Part shown: positions 1 through 48,879 of the stretch, piece after piece
How the letters are laid out: the number at the start of each line of letters is the position of its first letter
Position numbering within the stretch: the first letter of the stretch is position 1
Assembly: GCA_025057955.1 (NCBI GenBank)
Contig: JANXER010000004.1
Location: 1 to 49,327, forward strand
Length of the DNA stretch: 49,327 nt
Direction of reading: 5' to 3'
Source: Candidatus Methanomethylicaceae archaeon
GTDB lineage: Archaea > Thermoproteota > Methanomethylicia > Methanomethylicales > Methanomethylicaceae
Position numbers and translations under genes: made by a program
Notes under the pieces: model-generated
What the model was told of the DNA's origin: nothing
Databases searched by the model: none
What the model saw: the letters and a program-made list of their open reading frames with translations, nothing else

Positions 1-1320
1 TTTAGCCTTCAATTCCTTCAATCTCTCAATCTTCTTCTTTAATCTCTCCTTCCAATTCTTTGGCAATTTCCTTTTATGATAGCAAGTTTTTGCAGCTTCT
101 AAATTGGCCATGATTGCATAATATTTCTTTAGATATATTGGATCATCTTTATTCACCTTGAAGCTTTCCAAGGCATTTTTAACGGCAATAGATGCATGAT
201 ATGTTCTGAACACCTTGGCAGTTAGCCCTGGTAGAACTTCTGCTAAATAAGCATTTACTTTTTGCGATCTCACACCTTCAAATATGTATTCTCCTCCCTC
301 GGCTATGAATTCCTTCAAATTTTTATAAACGGGCTCTGGTGGGATTATTGTTCTTATCCATCTCACAGAATCCTTTCCCAGAAAGTCGAATGTTATACTT
401 CCATCGGGATTGAACTTTATATGCTCTGATCTTAATGTTGTTGCTCCTACAGTATCCACCTCATCTTCATCCTTCTCATCACCCACCCTCATTTTCAATT
501 CATCTATTAAATAACAAACTGTGGCTATTTTTCTCTCAAAGGGATCTCTTGACTCCAAACCATTAGCAATATGATTTCTCACTTTGTCTATTACTTTTGC
601 CAACTCCCATGATTTATTGAATTTTTCAATATCTCTACATTGCTTTAAGTAAGTGCTATCTGAAAGCCAAACATATTTCATCTTTCCAATTAATTTATCT
701 CTCCATTTAGCTATCCAAAGGGAGTGAGGATCAAAAACTACTGCTTTCCAAGATGATCCATTGTTTGGTGGATCAGGAATTTTAGCATCTGGAGATAGAT
801 TTAAAATAACATCTTCTGTCTTAATTGCTGGCTTCCATCTTCCTCTTAAAGGATGATCTCCTCTTCCAATGAATATACTAGCTGGCTCTGCTCTATAATT
901 TGAGATTTCCATTAATATTCCATTCACAATTGCATATCCATATTTCTTCTTATTTTCTTCTCTTATCTTCTTTCTCTCCTGAGCCAGAAGCTTTTTCTCC
1001 TCTTTACTCATGCTTTCCTTTTTAAGCCTCTCCTTATCCAGCCATTCTATTATTTCTGAAAAATCGAAATCCTCTGGCTTTATCTTCCCCTTTATTCCCA
1101 ATGCCCTTCCAAAATCCTTAAAGAAATTTCTCACAAATACTCTATCCTTTGCATAATCTGTTGAAAGCTTCTTAACCCAAGCTACTGCCATTTCCTCTTG
1201 TTCTGGCGTCAATTTTATTTCATTTCCTCTGAACTTTATTCTGAAGCCAATAGGTTCGTATTGTGGAATTAAGATACCATTGTGAATTAGCTGCCATATC
1301 TCCATTTTTTCCATTGCCAT
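1..1320 (-). CDS. topIB: DNA topoisomerase IB, eukaryotic-type (3' end truncated by the window edge, before the catalytic-Tyr domain)
   Basis: Open minus frame from ATG at 1320 to the edge (absent from the ORF track because it has no stop). Translation includes YGYAIVNGILMEISNYRAEPASIFIGRGDHPLRGRWKPAI, RVGDEKDEDEVDTVGATTLRSEHI, FDFLGKDSVRW and PGLTAKVFRTYHASIAV, which match the human Top1 core motifs (FRVEPPGLFRGRGEHP, RAGNEKDDDEADTVG, FDFLGKDSIR, PGLTAKVFRTYNASIT). It ends in a Lys/Glu-rich linker-like stretch. Confidence 0.95.
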   Translation of the reverse strand, partial: MAMEKMEIWQLIHNGILIPQYEPIGFRIKFRGNEIKLTPEQEEMAVAWVKKLSTDYAKDRVFVRNFFKDFGRALGIKGKIKPEDFDFSEIIEWLDKERLKKESMSKEEKKLLAQERKKIREENKKKYGYAIVNGILMEISNYRAEPASIFIGRGDHPLRGRWKPAIKTEDVILNLSPDAKIPDPPNNGSSWKAVVFDPHSLWIAKWRDKLIGKMKYVWLSDSTYLKQCRDIEKFNKSWELAKVIDKVRNHIANGLESRDPFERKIATVCYLIDELKMRVGDEKDEDEVDTVGATTLRSEHIKFNPDGSITFDFLGKDSVRWIRTIIPPEPVYKNLKEFIAEGGEYIFEGVRSQKVNAYLAEVLPGLTAKVFRTYHASIAVKNALESFKVNKDDPIYLKKYYAIMANLEAAKTCYHKRKLPKNWKERLKKKIERLKELKAK

Positions 1321-1500: not shown

Positions 1501-3246
1501 ATGAAAAATCTTGCCATTTTAGAGGTGATTTTAGAGAACTTCATGTCCTATGAGTACGCTAGAGTACCTCTGAGGAGGGGATTAAATTTAATTTGCGGTC
1601 CAAATGGCTCGGGAAAATCTTCAATTCTTCTAGGTATATCAGTGGCTACTGGACAGAGCTATACTGAGCGCTCAAAGAGATTAGCAGATCTTATAAGGAG
1701 AGGAAAAGATAGTGCTAGAGTTACCCTAATACTAGATAATAGTGAATCTGATGGGAAGCGACCAATTCCATACATAAGTAGTGATATAATATCCATCTCT
1801 CGGTATCTAAAAAAAGATGGAAAATATTGGTTTGAAATAAATGGAAGAGAAGTTAGCAAGTTTGATATTGAAAGACTCTTCAAAAGTGTTGGAATGAATC
1901 CCGATAATATGCTTATAATAATGCATCAGAATATGATAGAGGAATTTGCTATAACTTCCCCTGAGGATAAACTAAGGATGGTTGAAGAAGCTGTGGGCTT
2001 TTCCCAGTATAGAGAGGCAATATATGAATCTGAAGAGAAGCTCAATAGAATTGTTGGAGAAGAGGAAGCAACTTCTCAGCTCTTAGCAAGTGCTGAGCAG
2101 AATTTATCATATTGGAAGGAGCTGAATGAAAAATATAATGAGAAGAAAAGATTACTTGAGAGAAAGCACTACTTAGAGAGAGAGTTAATTTGGTCTCAAA
2201 TAATAAGACAAGAAAGCATAATTGCTCAATTAGAGGAGAAAGTTCGCTTCAAATTCTCTCAATTAAAATCTGTGGATGAGAGACTTTTGGAAAAATTGAA
2301 TATGGCAGAAGCCCTTTGGATAGAATATCTCTCACTTAAGGAGAAATTAAGAAAGCTACTATACAATGGTAAAAATTTTGAAGAAATAGGAATAATTGAT
2401 GAGAAATTGGATAAGGCTGTGAAGGATTATGTTAATACAAGGGTTGAAGAGGCCATACTTAAATATCGTAGAGAGGAAATAGAAGGTGAAATTAAAGAGC
2501 TTGAAAATTCCTTAAAAGAGGCAAGGAATGTATATTCAGAGCTTGAGAAGCTAAAGGTAGGTGATAGAATTTTTACTAATAGAGCCCCCTCAGAGATATC
2601 TGATGAAATTAGATTTATAAATGCACATTTGCTCTCTCTTGGAGATATACCAGAGGATACACCTTCTCTCTATCAAGCCTATTTGAAAACTTATAATGAA
2701 TTGAAACAGAGAATAGTAACTGTAAGTGAGAATAGAAAAAAAGTGCTTGAAGAGTTGGAGGAAAGAAAGAAAGTATGGCGAAGAATTATGGAGAATCTCA
2801 TTGATGAAGTCAATCCAATTTATCGTGAAATTCTGAGTAAAGTGGGTGGCACTGGAGGCTTAAGATTAGTTAATATGGAAGATCCTGAGAAAGCTGGATT
2901 GGAGATAACTGTTGGATTTAGGGGATCTGCACCTGTTCTCTTAAATGCATATTCACAAAGCGGAGGCGAAAGAGCTGTAGCCACCATGGCTTTTCTTCTT
3001 GCGCTTCAGCATCATCTCAAATCTCCAATAAGAGCCATTGATGAATTTGATGTACATATGGATCCACATAATCGAGAGGCTGTTATGAGAATGTTGTTCT
3101 CCTTTGTAAATGAAAATCCAAACGTTCAATTCATAATAATAACCCCAAGCCAAATGAGCATTATTAGTGAATCTGCCAACATAATATTCATTCAAATTGT
3201 TCATGGAAAATCGGAGGTCGCTAAGATTGCCACAACGCAAAGATGA
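1501..3246 (+). CDS. Short SMC/Rad50-superfamily ATPase, SMC5/6-like heads, no evident hinge or zinc hook
   Basis: Walker A CGPNGSGKSS near the N-terminus; C-terminal signature/Walker B SQSGGERAVATMAFLLALQ...IRAIDEFDVHMDPHNREAVM resembling SMC5/SMC6; only about 270 aa of mostly coiled-coil between heads; no CxxC. Confidence 0.85.
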   Translation: MKNLAILEVILENFMSYEYARVPLRRGLNLICGPNGSGKSSILLGISVATGQSYTERSKRLADLIRRGKDSARVTLILDNSESDGKRPIPYISSDIISISRYLKKDGKYWFEINGREVSKFDIERLFKSVGMNPDNMLIIMHQNMIEEFAITSPEDKLRMVEEAVGFSQYREAIYESEEKLNRIVGEEEATSQLLASAEQNLSYWKELNEKYNEKKRLLERKHYLERELIWSQIIRQESIIAQLEEKVRFKFSQLKSVDERLLEKLNMAEALWIEYLSLKEKLRKLLYNGKNFEEIGIIDEKLDKAVKDYVNTRVEEAILKYRREEIEGEIKELENSLKEARNVYSELEKLKVGDRIFTNRAPSEISDEIRFINAHLLSLGDIPEDTPSLYQAYLKTYNELKQRIVTVSENRKKVLEELEERKKVWRRIMENLIDEVNPIYREILSKVGGTGGLRLVNMEDPEKAGLEITVGFRGSAPVLLNAYSQSGGERAVATMAFLLALQHHLKSPIRAIDEFDVHMDPHNREAVMRMLFSFVNENPNVQFIIITPSQMSIISESANIIFIQIVHGKSEVAKIATTQR

Positions 3247-4018
3247 ATATTATGAAGAGTTGGCCAAGATAATAAACTTATGCCAAAGCATAAGGACAAA
3301 AGGAGAAGATCCTTTTCTAATAGACATTCCTCAAAAGCTTCAATTATTGAGAAAGCTGCTACCAAAATGGAAGCTCATAGAGGAATTATTGATGGATGCT
3401 GAAGCCATGAAGGAGCTCTCTCTTATGGTGAAATTACAAAGCGACTGGATTAAGAGAAAAGCCTCAGGTCTTTTCATAGATCCATTTCTTATAAGGGCGA
3501 AGATATCCCTTATGGGTAAGAAGGAGCTTGCTTCTGCATTTCTTTCATCATGGCATCCCATTGTTAGCTTGGAACAACTCACTTCGAAAAAACTTGAAGA
3601 AGCACTTGATTATTGGAGAGCGCTTATTCCTCTCTCCCAGAGGCTCAAGGAATTGGAAGAAGTGAGGAAAATTGAAGAAAGTACTTTGAGCATATCAGAT
3701 TTAATGAAATTGAAGTTTTTATCAGATAGAACATTTGAGGAAGAGCTTTTAAGAATGAAGGAGGAGCTTAAGAATCTTAAAGAACCAATAGATTATTGGA
3801 AATTTGTGGTTAAAGAAGATTATGAGAGCACTATTTTAAGAGCTTATATTCTCAGCTTTATAATATCTGAAGGTTATGTTGATTTAATGTTTAATCCCAT
3901 TGAGGAGAGAATCCTAATACTACCGAGCTCAGCTTCTAAAAAGAAGACTCCTAGATCTTTCCCAATAGCTGTTAATTATGAAAAATGGATGGAGAAGAAA
4001 AATGAACGAAGAGGTTAA
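3197..4018 (+). CDS. Kleisin (ScpA)-like partner of the SMC-like ATPase (putative)
   Basis: Overlaps the SMC-like gene by 50 nt (true start may be internal). N-terminal KGEDPFLIDI...MDAEAMKELSLMVKLQSDWIKRKASGL resembles the archaeal ScpA pattern (xxDPWxIDI ... LxxAAxLLxxKSxxL). C-terminal ILRAYILSFIISEGYVDLMFNPIEERILILP resembles a kleisin winged helix. Confidence 0.5.
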   Translation: MFMENRRSLRLPQRKDEYYEELAKIINLCQSIRTKGEDPFLIDIPQKLQLLRKLLPKWKLIEELLMDAEAMKELSLMVKLQSDWIKRKASGLFIDPFLIRAKISLMGKKELASAFLSSWHPIVSLEQLTSKKLEEALDYWRALIPLSQRLKELEEVRKIEESTLSISDLMKLKFLSDRTFEEELLRMKEELKNLKEPIDYWKFVVKEDYESTILRAYILSFIISEGYVDLMFNPIEERILILPSSASKKKTPRSFPIAVNYEKWMEKKNERRG

Positions 4019-4565
4019 AATATCTAGAAAATTGAGAAGAGCTGCTTTGCTTCTGCTATTTCAACATCATAGACTTCCTGGTGCAAAGGGCTGGGAATTG
4101 AGAAAGGCATTGGGCAAGGATTATATGAAAATCATAAAACTTCTCAATAGAAGATTGGAGGAACTTGGCTTAGAAATTAAGATAGTACATGAAAGTGGAA
4201 GTGAAGAATATACTGAGGAAGATTTCGATAGAGCCAGATTTTATGTTGTTTGTAAATCTCCGGCTATTGAGGAATTATCTGGATGGAGGATAGATTCGCT
4301 TGCAGTATTAGCTGCTTCTATTGCATATATAATCTCAAAGCAGGGAAGGGTGAATAGAAGTGAGGTTGAGGAGTTGCTTAGGGAAAAGTTTCCAGATTGG
4401 AAAATTGAATATGACTTAAATAATTTCATAAGAAGAGGCTACTTAAGTGAGGATGACTCTGGAAATCTTTATATTGGCTGGAGGACTAGAGCTGAAATAG
4501 ATAAAAAAACCCTTCTTGAGATAATTGCTGGTTACTTTCCTTCGGAAGAAAATCAAAAATTGTAA
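4002..4565 (+). CDS. KITE (ScpB/Nse1/Nse3)-like tandem winged-helix protein (putative)
   Basis: ORF 3978..4565; the ATG at 4002 is the more likely start. Two winged-helix-like halves: GAKGWELRKALGKDYMKIIKLLNRRLEELGLEIKIV and DSLAVLAASIAYIISKQGRVNRSEVEELLREKF. Last gene of an overlapping three-gene operon. Confidence 0.5.
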   Translation: MNEEVKISRKLRRAALLLLFQHHRLPGAKGWELRKALGKDYMKIIKLLNRRLEELGLEIKIVHESGSEEYTEEDFDRARFYVVCKSPAIEELSGWRIDSLAVLAASIAYIISKQGRVNRSEVEELLREKFPDWKIEYDLNNFIRRGYLSEDDSGNLYIGWRTRAEIDKKTLLEIIAGYFPSEENQKL

Positions 4566-6195: not shown

Positions 6196-6240
6196 GTTCT
6201 CAAAAATAATATTTATTTGGGTTTTATAATCTTTAGTGAA

Positions 6241-9081
6241 ATGTTGCTTTCAAAACCCATTCAAAAATTACTTGAAGAGAAGAGATTTACTAAATTCACT
6301 GAACCTCAAGAGAAGGCTATTCCACTAATACTTGAAGGCAAGAATGTATTAATAATAGCTCCTACTGGAACGGGAAAAACTGAAGCAGCCTTTCTTCCCA
6401 TTCTGGATATGTTGATTAGAGAGGGTAGAAGAGGGGGAATTAGCGTTCTATATATTACTCCCCTTAGAGCTCTAAATAGGGATTTAATGGATAGATTACA
6501 TTGGTGGTGTAGTAGACTGGACTTAAAAATATCTGTTAGACATGGGGATACTGAAACGAAGGAAAGGGGAAGACAAGCTTTATCTCCTCCAGATGTATTA
6601 ATCACAACACCAGAGACGCTTCAAGCCATTCTTCCTGGTAAGCGATTGAGAAAACATTTATCAAAGGTAAAATGGATTATAATTGATGAAGTTCATGAAT
6701 TAACAAATGATAAGAGAGGAAGCCAGCTTTCCATTGCTTTAGAGAGAATTAGAAAAATCACTGAAGAGGAACCTCAAATAATTGGACTATCTGCAACCAT
6801 TGGTTCTCCTGATGAGGTTTCGAAGTTCTTAGTTGGAGTAGGAAGAGAATGTGAAATAGTGCGAGTCTCCATAGCCAAGGATATGAAGCTGAGCGTTGAA
6901 ATGCCTGATGTGAAGGATATTGATTTAAAGCTAGCGGAGAAAATTGCCACTTTTCCCGAGGTGGCCGCAAGATTAAGATTAATGAAGGAATTGATAGATG
7001 AAAATAGATCAGCGTTAATATTCACCAATACTAGATCTGAGGCAGAGGTTCTTGCTAGTAGATTTAGAGTATGGGATATGAATATACCAATTAGTATACA
7101 TCATGGTAGTTTATCAAAATCCTCTAGAGTTGAAGCTGAGAGTGGACTAAAGAGAGGAGAACTAAAGGGCGTTGTATGTACTTCCTCCCTTGAACTTGGA
7201 ATAGATATTGGCACAATAGATCTTGTAATTCAATATAATTCTCCCAGGCAAGTTACAAGGCTTTTACAAAGAGTGGGTAGATCGGGTCATTGGGTTGGAG
7301 GAACTTCAAAGGGTGTCATAGTAGCTTTAGATTCGGATGATGCTCTTGAGTCTATTGTAATAGCTAGAAGGGCTCTTAGGGAAGAGCTTGAGAGAGTGGA
7401 GATGGTGGAAAAACCACTTGATGTTCTTGTACATCAAATAGCGGGATTAATTATTGAGTATGGAAGATTGAAGTTCAATGATATTATGGAATTGGTGAAA
7501 AAGGCCTATCCATTTAGGAATTTAACAGAGGAGGAATTGAAATCAGCTTTGGAATTTATGAGTAATAGAAGGCCAAGGCTAGCATTATATATACCAGAGG
7601 AAGATGTTGTAATTAAGGCAAGACCATATGATGCAGTGTTCAAATATTATTTTGAGAACCTATCCATGATACCTGAGGAAAAACATTATCTAGTAATAGA
7701 TGAGGAGAAGGATGAAGCTGTTGGAATGCTTGATGAAGCATTTGTTGCAGAATATGGTGAGCCTGGTGTGAAATTCATTGTTAGAGGATCTCCTTGGAGA
7801 ATTCTTCATATATACAAGGATACAGTATATGTCAAAGCTGAAAATGATCCATTAGGTGCCATTCCTGATTGGGTTGGAGATGAAATTCCAGTTCCCTTTG
7901 AAATTGCACAAGAAGTGGGAGCAATTAGGGAATTGGTTAATAGAATGATAAAGAGCGGAAGATCTCATGAAGAGATAATAGATATTCTTGAAAAGCATTA
8001 TCCGGCTCCTAGAGAGCTTCTCAATAAAGCCACAGCTGAGATTGTGGAGCAAGCAGAAGGAGTATGGGAAGTGCCTACGGATAAAATAATCACTATAGAG
8101 TGTTGGGAGGGCTATGTAATCATAAATTGTGCCTTTGGTCTAATGATAAATAAAGCTCTTTCGAGATTATTGGGCTATTTGATTAGTGAGCGTACTGGAA
8201 GCGGTGTTGGGGCCTCTCAAGATCCATATAGAGTTTTTCTGAAGACCTTCATTAATGGAAGGGAAGTGGCAGAGATTCTGAGGAATATAGATGTGGAAGA
8301 TTTAGATAATTTAATTGAAATTTCCATTGAGAAAACAGGGTTATTCAAGAGGCGTTTACTACATGTAGCAAAGAGATTTGGAATTATTGCTAAGGATGCT
8401 GATCTAAGTGAAGTAAGCTTACAGCAGCTTGCAGAAAACCTCAAGGATACTATAATATGGAGGGAGGCATTGAAGGAAATCTCCCATAAGGATTTAGATA
8501 TTAAGGGATTAAAGGAAGTTATTAGAAAAATTAGAGAGGGATATTTTAAAATAGTTGTTATGAATGAGGAGCTTCCATTATCTCCCATATCCAGGCTTGG
8601 AATAAGAAAGCTAAGTTGGAAGACGGATTTAATTCCTGCGGATAGATTGAGAAGAATTATGATAGAGTCTGGAAAAGCTAGATTATTGAATGAAGCCAGA
8701 GTAGCATTATGTTGTGATTGCCTCAGATATGTGGAAAATATTAGAATTAAAAACTTTAAGATGAACTGTCCAAATTGTGGATCAATGAAAATTGCCCTTC
8801 TTGATGCAGATCCTAAAGAGGTATTACAAATGGCCTCTGAAGTATTAGATAAAAAAAGGCCCTCTGAGAAATTTAAGAGACTCTATAGAAATGCCATGGA
8901 GATTGGGGAGCTCATTGCCACTTATGGCCTTCCTGCTGTAATGGCTATTGCTGCTAGAAATCTTTCAAAAACTTCTATATTAAGAATAGCCTCCGCTAAT
9001 ATCTCAGATATGGATTTTCTAGTGGATATGATTTTAAGAGAGGAGAGGGAAAGCCTTAAAAGTCGTTATGAAAGCTATTAA
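6241..9081 (+). CDS. lhr: Lhr-family DEAD/DEAH helicase
   Basis: ORF 6217..9081; ATG at 6241 likely. APTGTGKTEAAFLP, IIDEVHELTNDKRGSQL, GLSATIG, STSLELGIDIG-like CTSSLELGIDIGTIDLVIQ, LLQRVGRSGHW; C-terminal zinc motif CCDC...CPNC. Confidence 0.93.
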   Translation: MLLSKPIQKLLEEKRFTKFTEPQEKAIPLILEGKNVLIIAPTGTGKTEAAFLPILDMLIREGRRGGISVLYITPLRALNRDLMDRLHWWCSRLDLKISVRHGDTETKERGRQALSPPDVLITTPETLQAILPGKRLRKHLSKVKWIIIDEVHELTNDKRGSQLSIALERIRKITEEEPQIIGLSATIGSPDEVSKFLVGVGRECEIVRVSIAKDMKLSVEMPDVKDIDLKLAEKIATFPEVAARLRLMKELIDENRSALIFTNTRSEAEVLASRFRVWDMNIPISIHHGSLSKSSRVEAESGLKRGELKGVVCTSSLELGIDIGTIDLVIQYNSPRQVTRLLQRVGRSGHWVGGTSKGVIVALDSDDALESIVIARRALREELERVEMVEKPLDVLVHQIAGLIIEYGRLKFNDIMELVKKAYPFRNLTEEELKSALEFMSNRRPRLALYIPEEDVVIKARPYDAVFKYYFENLSMIPEEKHYLVIDEEKDEAVGMLDEAFVAEYGEPGVKFIVRGSPWRILHIYKDTVYVKAENDPLGAIPDWVGDEIPVPFEIAQEVGAIRELVNRMIKSGRSHEEIIDILEKHYPAPRELLNKATAEIVEQAEGVWEVPTDKIITIECWEGYVIINCAFGLMINKALSRLLGYLISERTGSGVGASQDPYRVFLKTFINGREVAEILRNIDVEDLDNLIEISIEKTGLFKRRLLHVAKRFGIIAKDADLSEVSLQQLAENLKDTIIWREALKEISHKDLDIKGLKEVIRKIREGYFKIVVMNEELPLSPISRLGIRKLSWKTDLIPADRLRRIMIESGKARLLNEARVALCCDCLRYVENIRIKNFKMNCPNCGSMKIALLDADPKEVLQMASEVLDKKRPSEKFKRLYRNAMEIGELIATYGLPAVMAIAARNLSKTSILRIASANISDMDFLVDMILREERESLKSRYESY

Positions 9082-10657: not shown

Positions 10658-12571
10658 TTAACTATATCCTGGCATTTTGGTCAATTCATTCAAGAAATCT
10701 CTTGATTTAAGATATTCAAGGAATTTTTTCACATAAGCATTATCTGGATTAATAATAAAATCATATTCTTCATAACACCAAGGAATGAAATCTAATCCAT
10801 ATTGAATAGCTGAATTCATAATTCCAATGCCTACATCTGCTCTACCTTGACTAATTGCTGCTGCAACTGCAGAATGAGTTTTTGCCTCCCATCTATATCC
10901 TCTTATTTTATTGATTACATTTTGGAAGTTTAAATTTCTCTCCTTACACATTTTTTTTATCATATAGTCTATAAGTACTCTTGTGCCCGAACCTCTATTC
11001 CTATTAATGAACATTACATCTTCTCTTAGAAGATCAACAATTCCTTTTATATTCTTTGGATTTCCTTTTTTAACCATCATCCCTTGCATCCTCTTATATC
11101 CTTTAATTAAATACTCTTTTGGAATTCCCATCCTCAATAAATATGGCTCATTATAGCTCATTGTTTCAGGATCTAGCAAATGAACTCCAGCTATATCTGC
11201 CTCTCCTCTTTTTATGGCCTCAAGGCCGCCCATTGAGCCAATGTTAACTAGCTTAGCTCTAACTCCATATTTTTCAAATAGCCTCTCTATTAATAAATCC
11301 AAGGCTGGACAATTACTCCCCATGATTACTAAATCTGCTAATTCCTCATGGAATAAATTAACTTCAACCAATTCCCCTCTTTCCAAAAATTCTCTATCTT
11401 CCCTCACTATTATGTAACCATCGGATTTACAAAGCTCTCCTATTGCTCCAGAACTTGCAAATATGGGGAAGGCTATAATTTCTTCCTTCTTCTTAATTAA
11501 ATGGACTGGAAGGAACCATCTTCTTCCTTTGATGGCATTTACTCTTTCAGCCAATTTAGCAATAACTCTTTTGCTTTGTTCTCTTCTCATATAGATATGA
11601 TTAATGTAAGGTTTGACAACTTCATTAAATACTATCAATGCTGAGACTGGATAGCCAGGCAGACCAAAGATAGGTTTACCATTATGCATTGCTATAACTG
11701 TGGGCTTTCCTGGCTTTATATTAAGTCCATGCACTAGTATTCCTTCATTGCATACTTCTTCTAAAATTCTATAAACAATATCACCAGCTCCTGCGGAAGT
11801 TCCTCCAGAAATTATTATAGCATCACATTTTTCTAAACCTTCAATTAATAGCCTCTTTATTTCTTCGTAGACATCCCTTGTTCTTCCAAGAAATATGGCA
11901 TCAACATCCTCTTCCTTCAAAGCTGAAAGAATGGATAGAGAATTAGTATCATAAATTTTACCAAATATTAGCCTCTCTCCTTGAGCTATTAATTCATCCC
12001 CAGTAGATATAACTCCAACTCTCAATTTTTTAAATACTTCAATCTTCTTAATTCCAAGGGCTGCTAATACTGCTATCTCCCTTCTTCCCAACTCAGTTCC
12101 CTTTCTCAAGGCAATTGTTCCTATTTCAATATCAGAACCTGTAAATGCTATATTCTCTCCTGGAGTAACTGATTTGAAGATATAAACGAATTCTCCCTCC
12201 CTCTTAGTATACTCTATCATTACAACAGCATCTGCTCCCCTTGGTATTGGCGCACCCGTTGAAATCTCCATACATTCCCCTTCTGAAATTTCTCTTATCT
12301 CAGAATCTCCTGCAGCTATGCTACCTATACATTTCAATTTAATGGGATTTTGTTCAGAAGCTCCTTCAATGTTTGAAGAAATTACAGCATATCCATCCAT
12401 TTCCGCTCTATCGAAGGGCGGTAGATCTATGCTAGAATAAATGGATTTTGCTAAAATTCTTCCATGGGCATCTTCTATATCTATAATTTCAATCTCTCTT
12501 TCTAAATTTCTAATAATTTTTTCTAAAGCTTCCTCTATGCTTAATAATCTATGGAAAATTTTCCTCATCAT
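10658..12571 (-). CDS. moeA: Molybdopterin molybdotransferase MoeA with C-terminal periplasmic-binding-protein-like domain
   Basis: DLPPFDRAEMDGYAV, STGAPIPRGADAVVMIE, GVISTGDELI, GGTSAGAGD, KPGKPTVIAMHNGKPIFGLPGYPVSAL; about 200 aa C-terminal PBP-like extension. Confidence 0.93.
   Translation of the reverse strand: MMRKIFHRLLSIEEALEKIIRNLEREIEIIDIEDAHGRILAKSIYSSIDLPPFDRAEMDGYAVISSNIEGASEQNPIKLKCIGSIAAGDSEIREISEGECMEISTGAPIPRGADAVVMIEYTKREGEFVYIFKSVTPGENIAFTGSDIEIGTIALRKGTELGRREIAVLAALGIKKIEVFKKLRVGVISTGDELIAQGERLIFGKIYDTNSLSILSALKEEDVDAIFLGRTRDVYEEIKRLLIEGLEKCDAIIISGGTSAGAGDIVYRILEEVCNEGILVHGLNIKPGKPTVIAMHNGKPIFGLPGYPVSALIVFNEVVKPYINHIYMRREQSKRVIAKLAERVNAIKGRRWFLPVHLIKKKEEIIAFPIFASSGAIGELCKSDGYIIVREDREFLERGELVEVNLFHEELADLVIMGSNCPALDLLIERLFEKYGVRAKLVNIGSMGGLEAIKRGEADIAGVHLLDPETMSYNEPYLLRMGIPKEYLIKGYKRMQGMMVKKGNPKNIKGIVDLLREDVMFINRNRGSGTRVLIDYMIKKMCKERNLNFQNVINKIRGYRWEAKTHSAVAAAISQGRADVGIGIMNSAIQYGLDFIPWCYEEYDFIINPDNAYVKKFLEYLKSRDFLNELTKMPGYS
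12212..12307 (-). repeat. 96-bp identical tract, copy in the 637-aa MoeA gene
   Basis: Identical to 13434..13529 base for base by eye. Confidence 0.9.
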
Positions 12572-13796
12572 TAATCAACTCCACTTCCACTTCCTCTCCT
12601 TCTTCCAATCCTTCTAAATCCTCCCTTATAATAATAAGGCCATCAGCCTTAGTTATGGATGATAATAATCCTGCTCCTGTAATCATTATTGGATCTGCTA
12701 TAAACTTTCCATCAATGCTTCTTATTTTTGCTCTTAAGAAATGTCTTATTCCTGGTGTAGTTGGAACTCTTCTACTTAATATCGCCTTAATCCTTCTTCT
12801 CTTCCCTCTTTTTCTTCCAGTCCATATATTTATCAAAGGAAGAACAACAAATTCAAAGCCTATTAAAGCTGCTACTGGATAGCCTGGAAGCATTATTAAG
12901 GGCTTCTCATTCACTATACCAGCACTTGTTGGCTTTCCCGGCTTAATAGCCATGCCATGAAATAGCATTGAAAAATATTTCTCTATGATTTCTGGTAGGA
13001 GATCCTTCCTACCTACAGAAGTACCTCCTATTGTTATTATCATATCAGAACTACTGGATAAATCATTTATAGCACTCAATATTTCATTATAATCATCTTT
13101 AACAATTCCTCTATCTATAACTTCACATCCAGCCTCTTTCAAAGCTCCAATAATCATTGGTCTAGTGGAATCTACTATTTTTCCAACTTCTAATTTTTCA
13201 TGATAATTAATTAATTCATCTCCTGTAGAAAAAATTCCAATTTTAGGTTTTCTTCTAACTAATACTTCCCTCACACCTATGGAAGCAAGCACTCCTATGT
13301 GGTGATATTTCAATAATTTTCCTTTACTTACCACAATTTCTCCCTTTTTTATGTCCTCTCCTTTGAGAGATACATTAGCAAATCTAGCCACAGGCCTTTT
13401 TACTTTGACAAATCCATTTTCTAATTCGCAATCCTCTATCATTACAACAGCATCTGCTCCCCTTGGTATTGGCGCACCCGTTGAAATCTCCATACATTCC
13501 CCTTCTGAAATTTCTCTTATCTCAGAATCAGCGTATATTATTCCCTTGAGCTTTAATATGGCTGGATTATATGGATTTGCACTGAAAGTTTCATGAGATT
13601 TTAAAGCAAAGCCGTCCACTGCTGCTCTATCAAAGGCTGGAACATCTATTTCAGATATAATATCTTCAGCTAAAATTCTTCCAATAGCCTCGGATAATGG
13701 AAGTTTTTCACTTTCAAAGCTTTTATTTCCAAATTTTTTCATGAGTATTGCTAAGGCCTCATCTAATTTCTTTAACTCTTTAAATCCTCTTCTCAT
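12549..13796 (-). CDS. moeA: Molybdopterin molybdotransferase MoeA (second paralog)
   Basis: DVPAFDRAAVDGFALKS, STGAPIPRGADAVVMIED, GIFSTGDELI, GGTSVGRKD, KPGKPTSAGIVNEKPLIMLPGYPVAAL. Confidence 0.93.
   Translation of the reverse strand: MRRGFKELKKLDEALAILMKKFGNKSFESEKLPLSEAIGRILAEDIISEIDVPAFDRAAVDGFALKSHETFSANPYNPAILKLKGIIYADSEIREISEGECMEISTGAPIPRGADAVVMIEDCELENGFVKVKRPVARFANVSLKGEDIKKGEIVVSKGKLLKYHHIGVLASIGVREVLVRRKPKIGIFSTGDELINYHEKLEVGKIVDSTRPMIIGALKEAGCEVIDRGIVKDDYNEILSAINDLSSSSDMIITIGGTSVGRKDLLPEIIEKYFSMLFHGMAIKPGKPTSAGIVNEKPLIMLPGYPVAALIGFEFVVLPLINIWTGRKRGKRRRIKAILSRRVPTTPGIRHFLRAKIRSIDGKFIADPIMITGAGLLSSITKADGLIIIREDLEGLEEGEEVEVELINDEENFP
13434..13529 (-). repeat. 96-bp identical tract, copy in the 415-aa MoeA gene
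   Basis: Identical to 12212..12307; encodes DSEIREISEGECMEISTGAPIPRGADAVVMIE. Confidence 0.9.
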
Positions 13797-43037: not shown

Positions 43038-44066
43038 GTGCTATTATTGAGTAAAGAGATCCTCGACAGCATCAAAAGCCTTCTTAATTTTCCTGAGAGG
43101 ACAAAGGCCTATGGATTTGATGAATGGTTGGATGTGAATTCTATTATGGAAATTGGAGAGAAAGAAGGAAAAATTTCCGCAATAGATGGAGGCACTAGTG
43201 AAATAATAAGGTTTCCAACAATGGCTTTGGTTTTAAATAGAATCTATTGTAATTGCTTCCTTGGAATGAAGAAATTGGATTATTTTAGTAGATGTACTTT
43301 TATATCCTTAACTAGGCTTATAAAAGAAGGAGATAAACTCATCTATGAAACTAAAATTCTGAATTTTTTAGAGGGATATTTTGATTTGAAAATTCCAAAG
43401 GTAGACTCAAATGCCATAGAAATGAGAATAGGAAGAAATCGAGGCGATATCACTAGAGCCCTATCAATGGCTAGGAGATTTGCTGAATGGGCCTATGTAG
43501 AAAAAGCATTGGAATCAGGAGCTAAGCTCATATTAATTGATGGATCTTTACAAGCATCCTTTCCAAATGAATCCAAGCTCATGGATTCAGCATATGAGCT
43601 TGTTAGAAATCGCAATGCTATAATAGCAGGGCTTTCTAAGACTACAACTTTATTCACTGAGGAAGGAATTCCCATCTCCGGATTTTTAGAGCACTTAGCA
43701 AGTAAAAGAGGTTTAAGAAAATGGGCCATAAGATTGGGAATTTCCAATGAATGGACACATAGAGCAATTGTATATTACTTAAAACTTCATGAAAATGCAG
43801 ATAGAGGATTTAGAATGGATATATTAAAGGATGTAGGAGAAATAGAGGAAGCTTTCTCTATGCTAGCCTCAAATTCAAAGTATTTTGCATTTCCAGGATA
43901 TCCATATGCATTAATAGATGCTCATGAGTATGCTAAAGTGGGCAGAGAAGAGGCAATGCATATAAAAGGCTTGATACTTGATAGTTTAAATAAAGAGGAA
44001 TCCAAAAAAATGGAGGAGTTTGAGGCCTCATTAACTGGACATAGAATTTTAGATGAATTGGGTTGA
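43038..44066 (+). CDS. nurA: NurA-domain nuclease
   Basis: ISAIDGGTSEIIRF; LILIDGSLQASFP; directly upstream of herA. Confidence 0.88.
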   Translation: MLLLSKEILDSIKSLLNFPERTKAYGFDEWLDVNSIMEIGEKEGKISAIDGGTSEIIRFPTMALVLNRIYCNCFLGMKKLDYFSRCTFISLTRLIKEGDKLIYETKILNFLEGYFDLKIPKVDSNAIEMRIGRNRGDITRALSMARRFAEWAYVEKALESGAKLILIDGSLQASFPNESKLMDSAYELVRNRNAIIAGLSKTTTLFTEEGIPISGFLEHLASKRGLRKWAIRLGISNEWTHRAIVYYLKLHENADRGFRMDILKDVGEIEEAFSMLASNSKYFAFPGYPYALIDAHEYAKVGREEAMHIKGLILDSLNKEESKKMEEFEASLTGHRILDELG

Positions 44067-44072
44067 TGTAAT

Positions 44073-45602
44073 ATGGAAATTGTTGGTTCTATAGTGGCTG
44101 GAGGTAGCGATTACTTAATAATTAGAGAGAAGAAGGGATCAAGTCTAGAGTTAGGAGAGCTTTTGGCTGTGGAGGATGGAGATAAAAAGTACCTCTATGT
44201 GGTGTCCAGTATTGAATATAAATCCATTTTGGATGAAAATAGGCTTTATACAAGTGCGGGAACAATTATAGAGGGAATAAATCCAAAATTGGAAATTCCT
44301 GAGGATGATTTAAAGCTATTTAGAAAAGTAACTTTAGTACCTCTTTTGGAAGTATTAAATAATAATATCTATAGAGCTCCAAGATCAATACCAAGCTTTC
44401 TTTCTAAGGTTAGAAGAATAGAAAGCTCGGATTTCTCCTTTTTAGAAATTCCAAAGAATAGAATTTTCCTAGGAAAAATAAGAAGTGGAAGCAAGGCATT
44501 GGACTTGAATTACTATATGAATGGTGAGGAGATGCTTTCACATCATGTGATAATAGCAGCTCAAACTGGAAGGGGAAAATCCAATATGGTAAAGGTAATG
44601 CTATGGGAAATAATGAATTATAGTAATTTTGGAATATTGATTTTAGATGTTCATAATGAATATTTTGGATATGGCACTCAAAAAGGCCTAAAGGATCATC
44701 CAAGGGCAGATAAAGCTTTAGTATATTATTCAAAGAGCCCCCCTCCAGGGCAGAACAAGCTTGTGGTTAATTTGAAGTCCATAGAGCCAGAGGATCTCTT
44801 AGGAATAATTGAGCTTTCTGAGCCTCAGAAGGATGCCATAAATATCTTTGCACGAGATTATAAGAGGGAATGGTTGAAGGAGCTCCTAAGAGAAGATCCA
44901 GAAAGGGATAAGGAGTTTAAGAAAATCCATGCCTCAACCCTTAGAGCTCTTAGAAGAAAGCTTGGAAATTTATTCAGAATAAGAATTTTAGAAGATGGTG
45001 AACCTTATTGTGAGGATGATGTATTTTGCTTTGAGGGGGCTGGTGAAACAACTATATCTGATATTGCTGATGCCTTGGAAGGGGGAAAGGTGGTAATCAT
45101 AGATGGATCAACAATACCTGATGAAACTGGATTAATAATAATGAGCGCAGTCATGAGAGAAGTATTCAATAGATATGAGAGATATAAAAATGAAGGTCTT
45201 CTTAGGGATAAGGTTCAAATTGGCGTAGTGCTTGAGGAGGCTCCTAGAATTTTAGGAGAGCTATATGATAAGAATATATTTGGGAGAATTGCAAGAGAGG
45301 GAAGAAAGTTCAAAATAGGATTAATAGCAGTAACTCAAATGGCCTCTGTAATACCGGATGAAATTCTCGCCAATATAGGCACCAAGATAATAATGGGAAA
45401 TGAAATGCAAAAGGAGAGAAGAAAGCTCATTGAGAATTCCCCTCAAGATCTTTCGGCTTATAATTACATAATTGCAGGTTTAGAAAAGGGTGAGAGCATT
45501 GTAACTTCCATATTCTCGAAGTTTCCAGTTCCAATATATACTCCTCTCTTCGATGATATTGCTACTAAAAGAGCTGATAAATTTGAGCCTGTATTCTTTT
45601 AG
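44073..45602 (+). CDS. herA: HerA DNA translocase
   Basis: HHVIIAAQTGRGKSNMVKVMLWEI; LILDVHNEYFGYG; VVLEEAPRILGE; RIAREGRKFKIGLIAVTQ. Confidence 0.95.
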   Translation: MEIVGSIVAGGSDYLIIREKKGSSLELGELLAVEDGDKKYLYVVSSIEYKSILDENRLYTSAGTIIEGINPKLEIPEDDLKLFRKVTLVPLLEVLNNNIYRAPRSIPSFLSKVRRIESSDFSFLEIPKNRIFLGKIRSGSKALDLNYYMNGEEMLSHHVIIAAQTGRGKSNMVKVMLWEIMNYSNFGILILDVHNEYFGYGTQKGLKDHPRADKALVYYSKSPPPGQNKLVVNLKSIEPEDLLGIIELSEPQKDAINIFARDYKREWLKELLREDPERDKEFKKIHASTLRALRRKLGNLFRIRILEDGEPYCEDDVFCFEGAGETTISDIADALEGGKVVIIDGSTIPDETGLIIMSAVMREVFNRYERYKNEGLLRDKVQIGVVLEEAPRILGELYDKNIFGRIAREGRKFKIGLIAVTQMASVIPDEILANIGTKIIMGNEMQKERRKLIENSPQDLSAYNYIIAGLEKGESIVTSIFSKFPVPIYTPLFDDIATKRADKFEPVFF

Positions 45603-45610
45603 GTGATGAA

Positions 45611-46840
45611 ATGAAGTTCGCCCATATGTCAGATATACATTTAGGAGCCACTACAGAACCAAGGCTCAGAGAGCTTGAGATTTCCACACTTAATAGAGCC
45701 TTTCAAATATGCATGGATAGAGATGTTGACTTCATAATAATCTCTGGGGATTTATTTCATGTGAACATACCTGATTTATTCATAGTAAAGGAAGCTGTAA
45801 AAATAATGAAGAGGTTTGTGGATCGAGGAAGAAAGATCTATTTAGTTTATGGAAGTCACGATTACTCTCCAAATGCTACTTCCATTGTGGATATACTTGA
45901 GGAGGCTGGATTGATAAAAAGAGTGGGCAAGCCAAGTTTTTCAAATGGAAAGCTGAGGCCAGAGATAATAGTGGATGAGAGGACTGGCGCTATGATTACT
46001 GGAATTTCAGGAAGAAAGCTCTCATTGGAAAGGGATTATTTCAGATATTTAGATAGAGAGTATTTCTCCTCACTTAAGGGCTACAAAATCTTCGTATTTC
46101 ATAGTGCAATAGAGGAATTAAAGAGAAAGGGGGAATATTATGAGGGCATTGCTTCATCAGATCTTCCAAATGGATTTGATTACTATGCAGGTGGACATTT
46201 ACATAGAAGGGTTGAAGATCCTAGGAGGAAAATCTTCTATCCTGGACCATTATTCACCGGCTGGGGGATAGATCTTGAAAATACCATAAAAGGGGAGAGA
46301 AGAGGATTTTTCATAGTTGAAGATGGAAGGGTTGAGTTTTTAGATTTAACACCATTTCAAGGAATCTATAAGGAGATAGATGCCACAGGGCTTTCTGCAT
46401 TTGAGTTAAATAGTAAAATTAAGAACTTCATAGAGAATACTGATGTAAGAGATAAAGTTATTGTTCTCAAAGTTTTTGGAGTGCTTTCGAGGGGAAAAAC
46501 CAGCGATGTGGAATTTTCAAGGATAAGGGAGGAAATAATGAGGAGAGGAGCATTATACTTACACTTGAATCGAAGCCAACTTAGATCTAAGGAATTTGAG
46601 AGCTCTACCCCCATAGGAGAAGATATTCAAAAAATTGAGGAGAATATCTTCAAGGAAGCTGTAAGCAATAGAAAATTTAGTGAATCCAAGCTTATTAATG
46701 AAGTTGTAGCACTTTCAAGGGCGCTCTTCAATCAATTGAAGGTTCAGAAAAAAGAAGGCGAAAGGGAGGCGGATTATGAGAAAAGAATGGAGGAGATTGC
46801 TTTGGAAGTTCTAGGAATTAAGGATCTTCTATCAGGGTGA
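45611..46840 (+). CDS. mre11: Mre11 nuclease
   Basis: FAHMSDIHLGA; FIIISGDLFH; VYGSHDY; GGHLHRR. Confidence 0.95.
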   Translation: MKFAHMSDIHLGATTEPRLRELEISTLNRAFQICMDRDVDFIIISGDLFHVNIPDLFIVKEAVKIMKRFVDRGRKIYLVYGSHDYSPNATSIVDILEEAGLIKRVGKPSFSNGKLRPEIIVDERTGAMITGISGRKLSLERDYFRYLDREYFSSLKGYKIFVFHSAIEELKRKGEYYEGIASSDLPNGFDYYAGGHLHRRVEDPRRKIFYPGPLFTGWGIDLENTIKGERRGFFIVEDGRVEFLDLTPFQGIYKEIDATGLSAFELNSKIKNFIENTDVRDKVIVLKVFGVLSRGKTSDVEFSRIREEIMRRGALYLHLNRSQLRSKEFESSTPIGEDIQKIEENIFKEAVSNRKFSESKLINEVVALSRALFNQLKVQKKEGEREADYEKRMEEIALEVLGIKDLLSG

Positions 46841-48879
46841 TGGATTTGATTATAAGGCGATTAAAGCTGAAAAACATAAGAAGCTATGATGAAGGTGAAA
46901 TAAGCTTTCCAACTGGAGCAGTGCTCTTTGAAGGGGATATAGGATCAGGAAAATCAACAATTCTTCTTGCAATAGAGTTTGCATTATTTGGATTGGGAAA
47001 TGAAAAGGGGACAAGCCTATTGAGCTTGGGAAGGAATGAAGGAGAGGTGGAATTGGAGTTTGAGGCAAGGGGAAAAATCGTTAAAGTGCATAGGGGTTTG
47101 GTTAGATCAAGGAAGAGAGGAGGAGTAACTCAAGAGGACTGCTGGATTGAGATGGATGGTAGAAGATATGTATTATCACCCACTGAAATGAAGGAAATGA
47201 TGCTTAATATTTTGGGATATAATGAGCCTGTGGATCCAAAAGCCAAGAGCATAATCTTCAGATATGCTATTTATACTCCTCAAGAGGAAATGAAGGAGAT
47301 TCTTAATAGACCTGTGGATGAAAGGCTACAAACCATAAGAAAAGCTCTAAGGCTTGAGGATTATAAAATAGCTAGAGATAATGCTCTTACTGTATCCAAG
47401 GGATTGAGATTTTATGCTAGGCAATTTATGGAAGAGGAGAAGAGATTACCAGATTTAGAAAAGGAGAAAAAAGAGCTCATTCTTAAAAAAGAGGAAACTG
47501 CTAAGAAAATTGAAGATTTAGAGAATAAGCTAAGCGATGTTGAAATTTCAATAAAGGGCATTGAGAGTGAATTGGAAGTTTTAATGAGGGAGATGGAGAA
47601 GCTAGCTGGAGAGGCTAAAAGAGGAGAAGAGCTTGAGAGGACTATGGAAGATTATAATAAAAAATTAAAGATTTTAAAAAATCAAGTAAATTTCGATAGA
47701 CAGAAGAGCAATAGTTTGAAGAAAGAGAGGGATGAAATTTTAAAACTATTAATAAAGCCAGAGAAGGAGTTAAAAGTAATAGAGGAGGAGCTTAATAGAG
47801 CTAGAGTGGAAATTAAAGCAATTCTAGGAGAAGTGGCAAGGAAGGAGCATCTTCTATCCACATATAAATCTCTTGTGGAGAGAAAAATATGTCCCACTTG
47901 TAATCAAAGGGTTGATCATGAGGAATTTTTATCGAAAATTGAAAAGCTCGAAAAGGAATATGAGGAGATAAACAGAAGGAAAAAGGAGCTTGAATTGAAG
48001 ATTGAATGGCTTGAATCAATGAAGAAAATGGCTGAAGATTACGATAGAAATAGTACTAAATTGAAAAGCCTTGAGGATAATATATCAACTATTGAGGATA
48101 GAATAGCTAAGGATGAAAATGAGTTAATGGAGCTCTCTAAAAAAATAGAGGTTTTACAGGAAAAATTGAGAATTTCTAAAGAGGCAGCAATGGAATATAA
48201 GAGTAAGAAATTGGAGTTTGAAAAAATTAATGATGACCTGAAGAGGTTAAGAGAAGAAAGAAGAATTTTAGAGAATGAGAAAATTAAGCGCCTTGCTGAT
48301 TTAGAAAAATTTCAATTCAGAATAAATGAAATAGAGCGAGAGATGGAAAAAATAAAGGATAGGATTACAAAGGGAAGGAGATTAATGGAATATGTTATCT
48401 GGCTGGAGGAGTGCTTTGCGCCAGCGCTTGAGAAAATTGAATCAACAATATTCAGAGATGCAAATAGAGAATTTAGCGAGGAATTCTCAAGGCTTTTTTC
48501 ATTTATGGTTGAAGATCCAACAAAGAGCGTAATGGTGGATGAACAATTCACTCCAATAGTAATACAGGAATCCTATGAACAAGAAATTTCAAATCTAAGT
48601 GGAGGTGAAAGAACAGCCTTAGCATTAGCCTTCAGATTAGCATTAAATAAGATTGTTCAGAAGAGGGCTGGAATAGAAGGTGGACTATTAATAATGGATG
48701 AGCCAACGGATGGCTTAAGCAAGGAGCAAATAGGTAAGATTGGCGATCTCATAAAGGAGCTTATGCTAAATCAAGTTATAATAGTTTCACATGAGAGGGA
48801 GCTTGAAGGAGCTGTGGATTATATATTTAGAGTTCAAAAGGAGAATGGAAAATCTAAAATAATTCCAGCAAAAGTTTGA
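46837..48879 (+). CDS. rad50: Rad50 ATPase
   Basis: GDIGSGKSTILLAIEFALFGLG; zinc hook ERKICPTCNQRVDHEEF; NLSGGERTALALAFRLALN; LLIMDEPTDGLSKEQIGKI. Confidence 0.95.
   Translation: MMDLIIRRLKLKNIRSYDEGEISFPTGAVLFEGDIGSGKSTILLAIEFALFGLGNEKGTSLLSLGRNEGEVELEFEARGKIVKVHRGLVRSRKRGGVTQEDCWIEMDGRRYVLSPTEMKEMMLNILGYNEPVDPKAKSIIFRYAIYTPQEEMKEILNRPVDERLQTIRKALRLEDYKIARDNALTVSKGLRFYARQFMEEEKRLPDLEKEKKELILKKEETAKKIEDLENKLSDVEISIKGIESELEVLMREMEKLAGEAKRGEELERTMEDYNKKLKILKNQVNFDRQKSNSLKKERDEILKLLIKPEKELKVIEEELNRARVEIKAILGEVARKEHLLSTYKSLVERKICPTCNQRVDHEEFLSKIEKLEKEYEEINRRKKELELKIEWLESMKKMAEDYDRNSTKLKSLEDNISTIEDRIAKDENELMELSKKIEVLQEKLRISKEAAMEYKSKKLEFEKINDDLKRLREERRILENEKIKRLADLEKFQFRINEIEREMEKIKDRITKGRRLMEYVIWLEECFAPALEKIESTIFRDANREFSEEFSRLFSFMVEDPTKSVMVDEQFTPIVIQESYEQEISNLSGGERTALALAFRLALNKIVQKRAGIEGGLLIMDEPTDGLSKEQIGKIGDLIKELMLNQVIIVSHERELEGAVDYIFRVQKENGKSKIIPAKV

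Follow-up and report, generated by a model that had tools for sequence, protein, structure and literature searches.

A three-gene operon on the forward strand of an archaeal genome of about 1.2 Mb probably encodes a homodimeric, hinge-less SMC–kleisin–KITE complex of the Smc5/6 type, which would act as an ATP-gated DNA clamp and form no SMC ring. The operon occupies positions 1501–4565 of the window—the whole stretch of 49,327 nucleotides analysed here, which lies at the start of its contig—and consists of an SMC-type ATPase (the mini-SMC) followed by two smaller genes, ORF2 and ORF3, whose products resemble kleisins and KITE proteins, respectively.

Organisation of the locus

The three reading frames overlap at their ends, as a preliminary description of this DNA had stated (Table 1). 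The kleisin gene shares 44 nt with the SMC gene; its start is preferably placed at the ATG at 3203, the listed TTG being less likely. For ORF3, the ATG at 4002 is chosen over the upstream alternative because it is the start used by most homologues, and with this start ORF2 and ORF3 overlap by 17 nt. A eukaryotic-type topoisomerase IB gene, found at the same place in eight Methanomethylicota loci, diverges from the operon and is a neighbour outside the proposed complex.

Table 1. Genes and protein features of the operon region, in positions of the window.
Feature	Position	Strand	Basis and remarks
Topoisomerase IB, eukaryotic-type, divergent neighbour	1..1320	-	Pfam Topoisom_I 2.2e-64; runs off contig end
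SMC ATPase, predicted Smc5/6-type, hinge-less	1501..3246	+	ATG start, 581 aa
Walker A GPNGSGKSS, residues 33-41	1597..1623	+	Sequence; GPNG-GKS invariant among aligned homologues
Outgoing coiled-coil helix, residues 168-288	2002..2364	+	AF2 model
Hairpin tip, residues 289-292, four-residue turn at expected hinge site	2365..2376	+	AF2 model
Return helix and SMC 'joint' region, residues 293-447	2377..2841	+	AF2 model; Foldseek
ABC signature QSGGER (Smc5-like), residues 486-491	2956..2973	+	QSGGER in 77/81 homologues
Walker B / D-loop RAIDEFDVHMD (Smc6-like), residues 511-521	3031..3063	+	RA[VI]DE[FY]D.HMD-type in nearly all of 81 homologues
ORF2, predicted Nse4-like kleisin	3203..4018	+	ATG start, 271 aa; alternative TTG 3197
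Kleisin C-terminal winged helix, Nse4_C match, residues 195-252	3785..3958	+	Pfam Nse4_C
ORF3, predicted KITE, tandem winged helix, Nse1/Nse3-like	4002..4565	+	187 aa; alternative start 3978

The SMC ATPase

The product of the first gene matches Pfam SMC_N (1.1e-35). When its family profile was compared with all PDB sequences, Smc5 (221 bits) and Smc6 (218 bits) led and between them filled all ten best matches, followed by prokaryotic Smc (172), SMC2 (142), SMC3, SMC4 and SMC1 (121–126) and, at the lower end, Rad50 (45). In a tree of 42 taxa built from 316 columns of aligned head segments, the mini-SMC family falls together with yeast Smc5 and Smc6, apart from the canonical archaeal SMCs and Rad50, with support of 95.9 (SH-aLRT) and 99 (UFBoot), long branches being a caveat to this placement. 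Judged by its sequence, the mini-SMC is of the Smc5/6 type, in agreement with the heads first described for it, and an identity as Rad50 was rejected on the difference between the Rad50 and Smc5 scores and on the missing zinc hook. The preliminary description had named both Smc5/6 and the coalescin-type proteins as possible relatives; the former kinship holds, whereas the latter is unsupported because the mini-SMC has no zinc hook and reaches 61.4 bits against the NCBIfam model for ASRP, whose cut-off is 300, and a coalescin/ASRP identity was rejected on these grounds.

The AlphaFold2 model of the mini-SMC (pLDDT 88.5) has a normal head, a joint and a single antiparallel coiled coil with a four-residue turn, the roughly 270 aa between the N- and C-terminal head motifs being modelled as one coiled-coil hairpin with a predicted length of about 18 nm and no hinge domain. 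Its best Foldseek match is 5xei (E 5.2e-27, TM 0.66/0.74), a laboratory-truncated Smc construct from P. yayanosii comprising head, coiled coil and joint. The hinge-less architecture is common to 81 SMC homologues, whose open frames span 588–741 aa in named genomes, and because it is so widely shared the short SMC is not an artefact; truncation, frameshift and faulty assembly are ruled out by the recurrence of the same architecture in dozens of genomes. A hinge hidden in longer homologues was likewise rejected, since Pfam SMC_hinge is not found even in the longest of them (741, 712 and 701 aa). No CxxC zinc hook is present in the arm of any of the 81 homologues, and the mini-SMC itself lacks the motif because residue 32 is its sole cysteine; the Rad50 encoded in the same window (46837–48879) has a CPTC zinc hook and served as an internal control. 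The mostly coiled-coil arm with neither hinge nor hook that had been read from the sequence is thereby recovered in the model and in the family as a whole.

The main rival to a ring-free complex starts from the same arm. The coiled-coil tips might dimerise directly through a cryptic mini-hinge, producing a small closed ring capable of translocation or extrusion in the manner of other SMC complexes. That hairpin and joint have been retained and that arms of some length occur in all members would fit such a contact, and in the Smc rod the arms touch each other close to the joint (PMC5526789). The tip stretch (residues 241–310), however, is the least conserved part of the protein among the 81 homologues, with an entropy of 2.8–2.9 against 1.1–1.4 in the heads; the length of the tip region differs by more than 100 aa from one homologue to another, and neither a cysteine motif nor a folded domain is predicted around the hairpin tip. 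We therefore regard direct tip dimerisation as unlikely, though as the alternative to be taken most seriously.

The kleisin and KITE proteins

ORF2 by itself matches Pfam Nse4_C weakly (E 0.0024), and 18 of the 26 members of its family match the same model, the best at 3.5e-7. Searched against the PDB, the ORF2 family profile retrieves EID3/NSE4B (1.4e-5) and yeast Nse4 (0.0042) before the N- and C-terminal domains of ScpA, so that Nse4-family kleisins take ranks one to four and ScpA the next three, and hhalign aligns ORF2 with archaeal ScpA over both ends (E 2.3e-6). Taken together, the Nse4_C, profile and hhalign matches mark ORF2, at the level of sequence, as a kleisin that is nearer to Nse4 than to ScpA. 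The earlier assignment as a kleisin with a winged-helix-like C-terminus is upheld by these matches, its likeness to ScpA giving way to a closer one to Nse4.

Taken alone, the ORF3 sequence gives a weak signal, with a best Pfam E of 2.8e-4; within its family, 10 of 27 members match Pfam MAGE (the Nse3 family) and three match SMC_Nse1. Sequence comparison of ORF3 with the PDB yields nothing convincing, and hhalign detects no similarity to archaeal ScpB-like proteins. The AlphaFold2 model (pLDDT 82.2) contains two winged-helix domains, corresponding to the two winged-helix-like halves that had been proposed, and its best Foldseek matches are the Nse1–Nse3–Nse4 structure 7dg2 (4.0e-6) and the MAGE-G1/NSE1 structure 5hvq (7.0e-6), with 7qcd also retrieved. 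The six matches with E below 0.001 comprise Nse1/Nse3 chains, the MAGE-G1/NSE1 complex and JetABC, MukE lying just below. Since the comparison with ScpB-like proteins is blank, the KITE identity is founded on the fold and on the Nse3/MAGE matches, not on ScpB; by its predicted fold ORF3 is an Nse1/Nse3-like KITE protein, one in which a RING domain is absent.

It could be argued from the single-sequence Pfam matches, which fall under the curated cut-offs, that ORF2 and ORF3 are unrelated to kleisins and KITE proteins and that the ATPase is a repair enzyme of the RecF, RecN or Rad50 kind with unrelated neighbours. This is strongly disfavoured by the run of Nse4-family and ScpA kleisins at the head of the ORF2 profile search, by the KITE chains (Nse1/Nse3/MAGE or JetABC, with MukE next) that lead the structural matches of ORF3, and by the distance between the Smc5 and Rad50 scores of the SMC.

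Conservation and distribution

ORF2 and ORF3 are present in the identical 38 of 61 relative genomes, with the SMC gene adjacent in nearly all, and in 10 of 11 genomes without an adjacent SMC gene a mini-SMC is encoded elsewhere. The trio stands at 62 of the 80 named loci, with few exceptions to direct order on one strand, and its lineages include Methanomethylicota, Bathyarchaeota, Nitrososphaeria/Thaumarchaeota, Hadesarchaea, Caldarchaeum and ANME-1. The preliminary description had allowed that homologues of the ATPase might consistently lack these neighbours; this is not so, and synteny is kept.

With the presence of the KITE gene taken as the marker, the mini-complex occurs in 147 of 397 genomes of the window's phylum and a hinge-bearing SMC in 204, the 397 dividing into 91 with both systems, 56 with the mini-complex only, 113 with a hinge SMC only and 137 with neither. 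In the phylum to which an ANME-1 genome belongs the mini-complex is rare (14/392). Nearly every positive genome carries a single copy of the operon, placed among housekeeping neighbours, and nearly every one has one SMC of the mini type and one KITE gene. Neither a hinge-bearing SMC nor ScpA was found in the window's genome or in its whole sampled class, and the mini-complex may be the sole SMC-type chromosome machine in Methanomethylicota and apparently also in ANME-1.

These counts bear on a second way in which the mini-SMC might dimerise, by forming a mixed dimer with a hinge-bearing SMC or with Rad50. A hinge-bearing SMC is at hand in the 91 positive genomes that have both systems, but it is missing from the other 56, and in genomes with both systems the canonical SMC has ScpA and ScpB-like genes of its own in a separate operon, which makes mixed pairing very improbable.

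Much the same low standing is given to a role in anti-plasmid or anti-phage defence comparable to Wadjet or Lamassu. Wadjet (JetABCD) is also an SMC–kleisin–KITE trio (PMC10586767), but the PADLOC matches of the mini-SMC are to generic ATPases, with no Jet models among the best of them, and the kleisin and KITE proteins have none. Neither a JetD-type Toprim gene nor any other Toprim effector is seen among the recurrent neighbours, a search of viral contigs returned no relative, and the single-copy state and housekeeping surroundings of the operon also argue against defence. An identity as a defence system was rejected on the PADLOC and viral-contig results.

A family of 227-aa proteins co-occurs with the operon and is a possible fourth partner of the mini-complex. 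Of the 147 genomes of the phylum that have the mini-complex, 118 also carry a gene of this family, compared with 9 of the 250 that lack the mini-complex, an odds ratio of 109 without correction for shared ancestry; counted at family level among the 61 relative genomes, the figures are 14 of 15 against 2 of 10 (Fisher p 3e-4). The gene lies divergently upstream of the operon in 25 of 80 loci and is often far from it. In relatives, the topoisomerase gene sits between the operon and the 227-aa family gene; the contig of the window ends inside that topoisomerase gene, and in this genome the family member is found at the end of another contig (214–885). The one member scanned has no Pfam match, and no convincing relative of the family appeared in NCBIfam or among PDB sequences.

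Proposed mode of action

For the homodimeric, hinge-less complex that we consider probable, we infer the assembly, stoichiometry, interfaces and clamp action as follows. One kleisin would tie two SMC heads together, its N-terminal domain binding one head at the neck and its C-terminal winged helix binding the second head at the cap, and a KITE homodimer would sit on the kleisin middle. Binding of ATP would join the heads, and a DNA duplex would be gripped by heads, necks, KITE and kleisin until ATP hydrolysis reopened the clamp. The DNA clamp of yeast Smc5/6 is formed by engaged heads, necks, Nse1–Nse3 and the Nse4 scaffold (PMC9191643), elements that all have counterparts in the mini-complex, and Smc5/Smc6 head complexes engineered to lack the hinge come together only upon addition of ATP (PMC8327961).

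Because there is no hinge and the far ends of the arms would be unjoined, the large SMC ring of other complexes would be impossible. The main role of the mini-complex would be that of an ATP-gated DNA clamp serving genome maintenance or the organisation of chromosomes, and some lineages would have no other SMC complex. Published SMC mechanisms (segment capture, loop extrusion) rely on a hinge and long arms, and loss of the hinge could therefore mean a quite different activity.

Relation to known complexes

With eukaryotic Smc5/6 the mini-complex shares the heads (QSGGER, DEFDV-MD), an Nse4-like kleisin and an Nse1/Nse3-like KITE. It differs in having a single SMC and a single KITE gene, the products of which are presumed to form homodimers, and in its short arms without a hinge and its KITE without a RING domain. 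Since the head, kleisin and KITE features are found and the hinge, arms and paralogue pairs are not, it appears to be related to Smc5/6 rather than a member.

An archaeal 'SMC5/6-related' SMC group was reportedly described by Yoshinaga and Inagaki in 2021, and van Hooff in 2025 is said to have studied archaeal SMC ancestry. A search of the open-access literature turned up no archaeal SMC described as lacking a hinge and having kleisin and KITE partners, although overlap with either of these two studies is possible. What is already known from trees is that archaeal 'SMC5/6-related' SMCs form a phylogenetic group beside Smc5/6 (PMC9389158), of which the mini-SMC is probably a member; that paper is silent on whether the group has a hinge and on any kleisin or KITE partners, and no mention was found in open-access papers of the build without a hinge, of the Nse4-like and KITE partners or of the co-occurring 227-aa family.

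Canonical Smc–ScpA(–ScpB) has in common with the mini-complex the SMC–kleisin–KITE logic, the head, arm and joint as in 5xei, and a remote kleisin homology, but it possesses a hinge and arms of about 50 nm, and the two coexist as separate operons. The hinge-mediated SMC dimer of canonical ring-forming complexes has no equivalent in the mini-SMC, and archaeal Smc–ScpA has been reported without a working KITE (PMC7055376). Rad50 and the ASRP proteins (coalescin ClsN, Sph) are likewise coiled-coil ABC ATPases, those of the ASRP type being of similar length, but their dimers are held by a zinc hook, found in most ASRP members (PMC9389158) and missing in 81 of 81 mini-SMC homologues; Rad50, moreover, has no kleisin or KITE partners (PMC10586767).

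Implications

The wider reading, that this is a naturally ring-free SMC–kleisin–KITE complex—a widespread archaeal clamp of the Smc5/6 type with a conserved fourth protein, and the only SMC complex in several lineages—is plausible, if slightly short of probable. To our knowledge, the hinge closes every known machine of the SMC kind into a ring. One review of these ATPases sets SMCs, with hinge, kleisin and KITE or HAWK proteins, against Rad50, with a zinc hook and no kleisin (PMC10586767); the mini-SMC family has kleisin and KITE and neither of the dimerisation devices, hinge or zinc hook. As heads, kleisin and KITE all lead to Smc5/6, the finding is relevant to how that complex arose: the hinge-less form may be either its ancestral state, predating the ring, or the product of a secondary loss. 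Should the three proteins assemble into a functional complex, clamping by SMC heads would be uncoupled from the ring and the long arms, and the capabilities of an SMC complex that has no hinge would become directly testable. The mini-complex could then reveal which elements of the ring are indispensable, and the trio would provide a small thermostable model.

Genomic neighbourhood of the mini-complex

A protein family of 227 aa without known domains lies divergently upstream of the mini-SMC, kleisin and KITE genes in 25 of the 80 loci compared, and genome-wide it co-occurs with the trio, being found in 118 of the 147 genomes of the phylum that carry the trio vs 9 of the 250 without it. The family is a candidate for a fourth component or a regulator. 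Another recurrent neighbour, in several lineages, is an Lhr-type helicase (30/80 loci), which in most of these loci lies on the strand opposite to the trio. The divergent arrangement of topoisomerase IB and the SMC gene also occurs in eight Methanomethylicota loci.

Bathyarchaeota bin1093 (G420, locus L161) has kleisin and KITE, with no mini-SMC detectable even though the contig is chromosome-sized, and the one SMC type found in it is canonical.

Features of the window and members of the 227-aa family
Feature	Position	Strand	Remark
Topoisomerase IB, eukaryotic-type	window 1-1320	-	divergent from SMC gene
Lhr-type helicase	window 6217-9081	+	
MoeA-type molybdopterin genes, tandem pair	window 10658-13796	-	one fused to a PBP-like domain
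NurA-HerA-Mre11-Rad50 cluster	window 43038-48879	+	Rad50 short (680 aa), CPTC zinc hook retained
227-aa family, window's genome	G000:C27:214-885		outside window
227-aa family	L119:915-1595	-	
227-aa family	L140:2309-2989	-	
227-aa family	L187:2506-3207	-	

In some Bathyarchaeota (L146, L147, L162, L163, L170, L180 and others), the cell division genes cdvA and ESCRT-III-like cdvB lie near the trio, a proximity hinting that the trio is tied to segregation or division.
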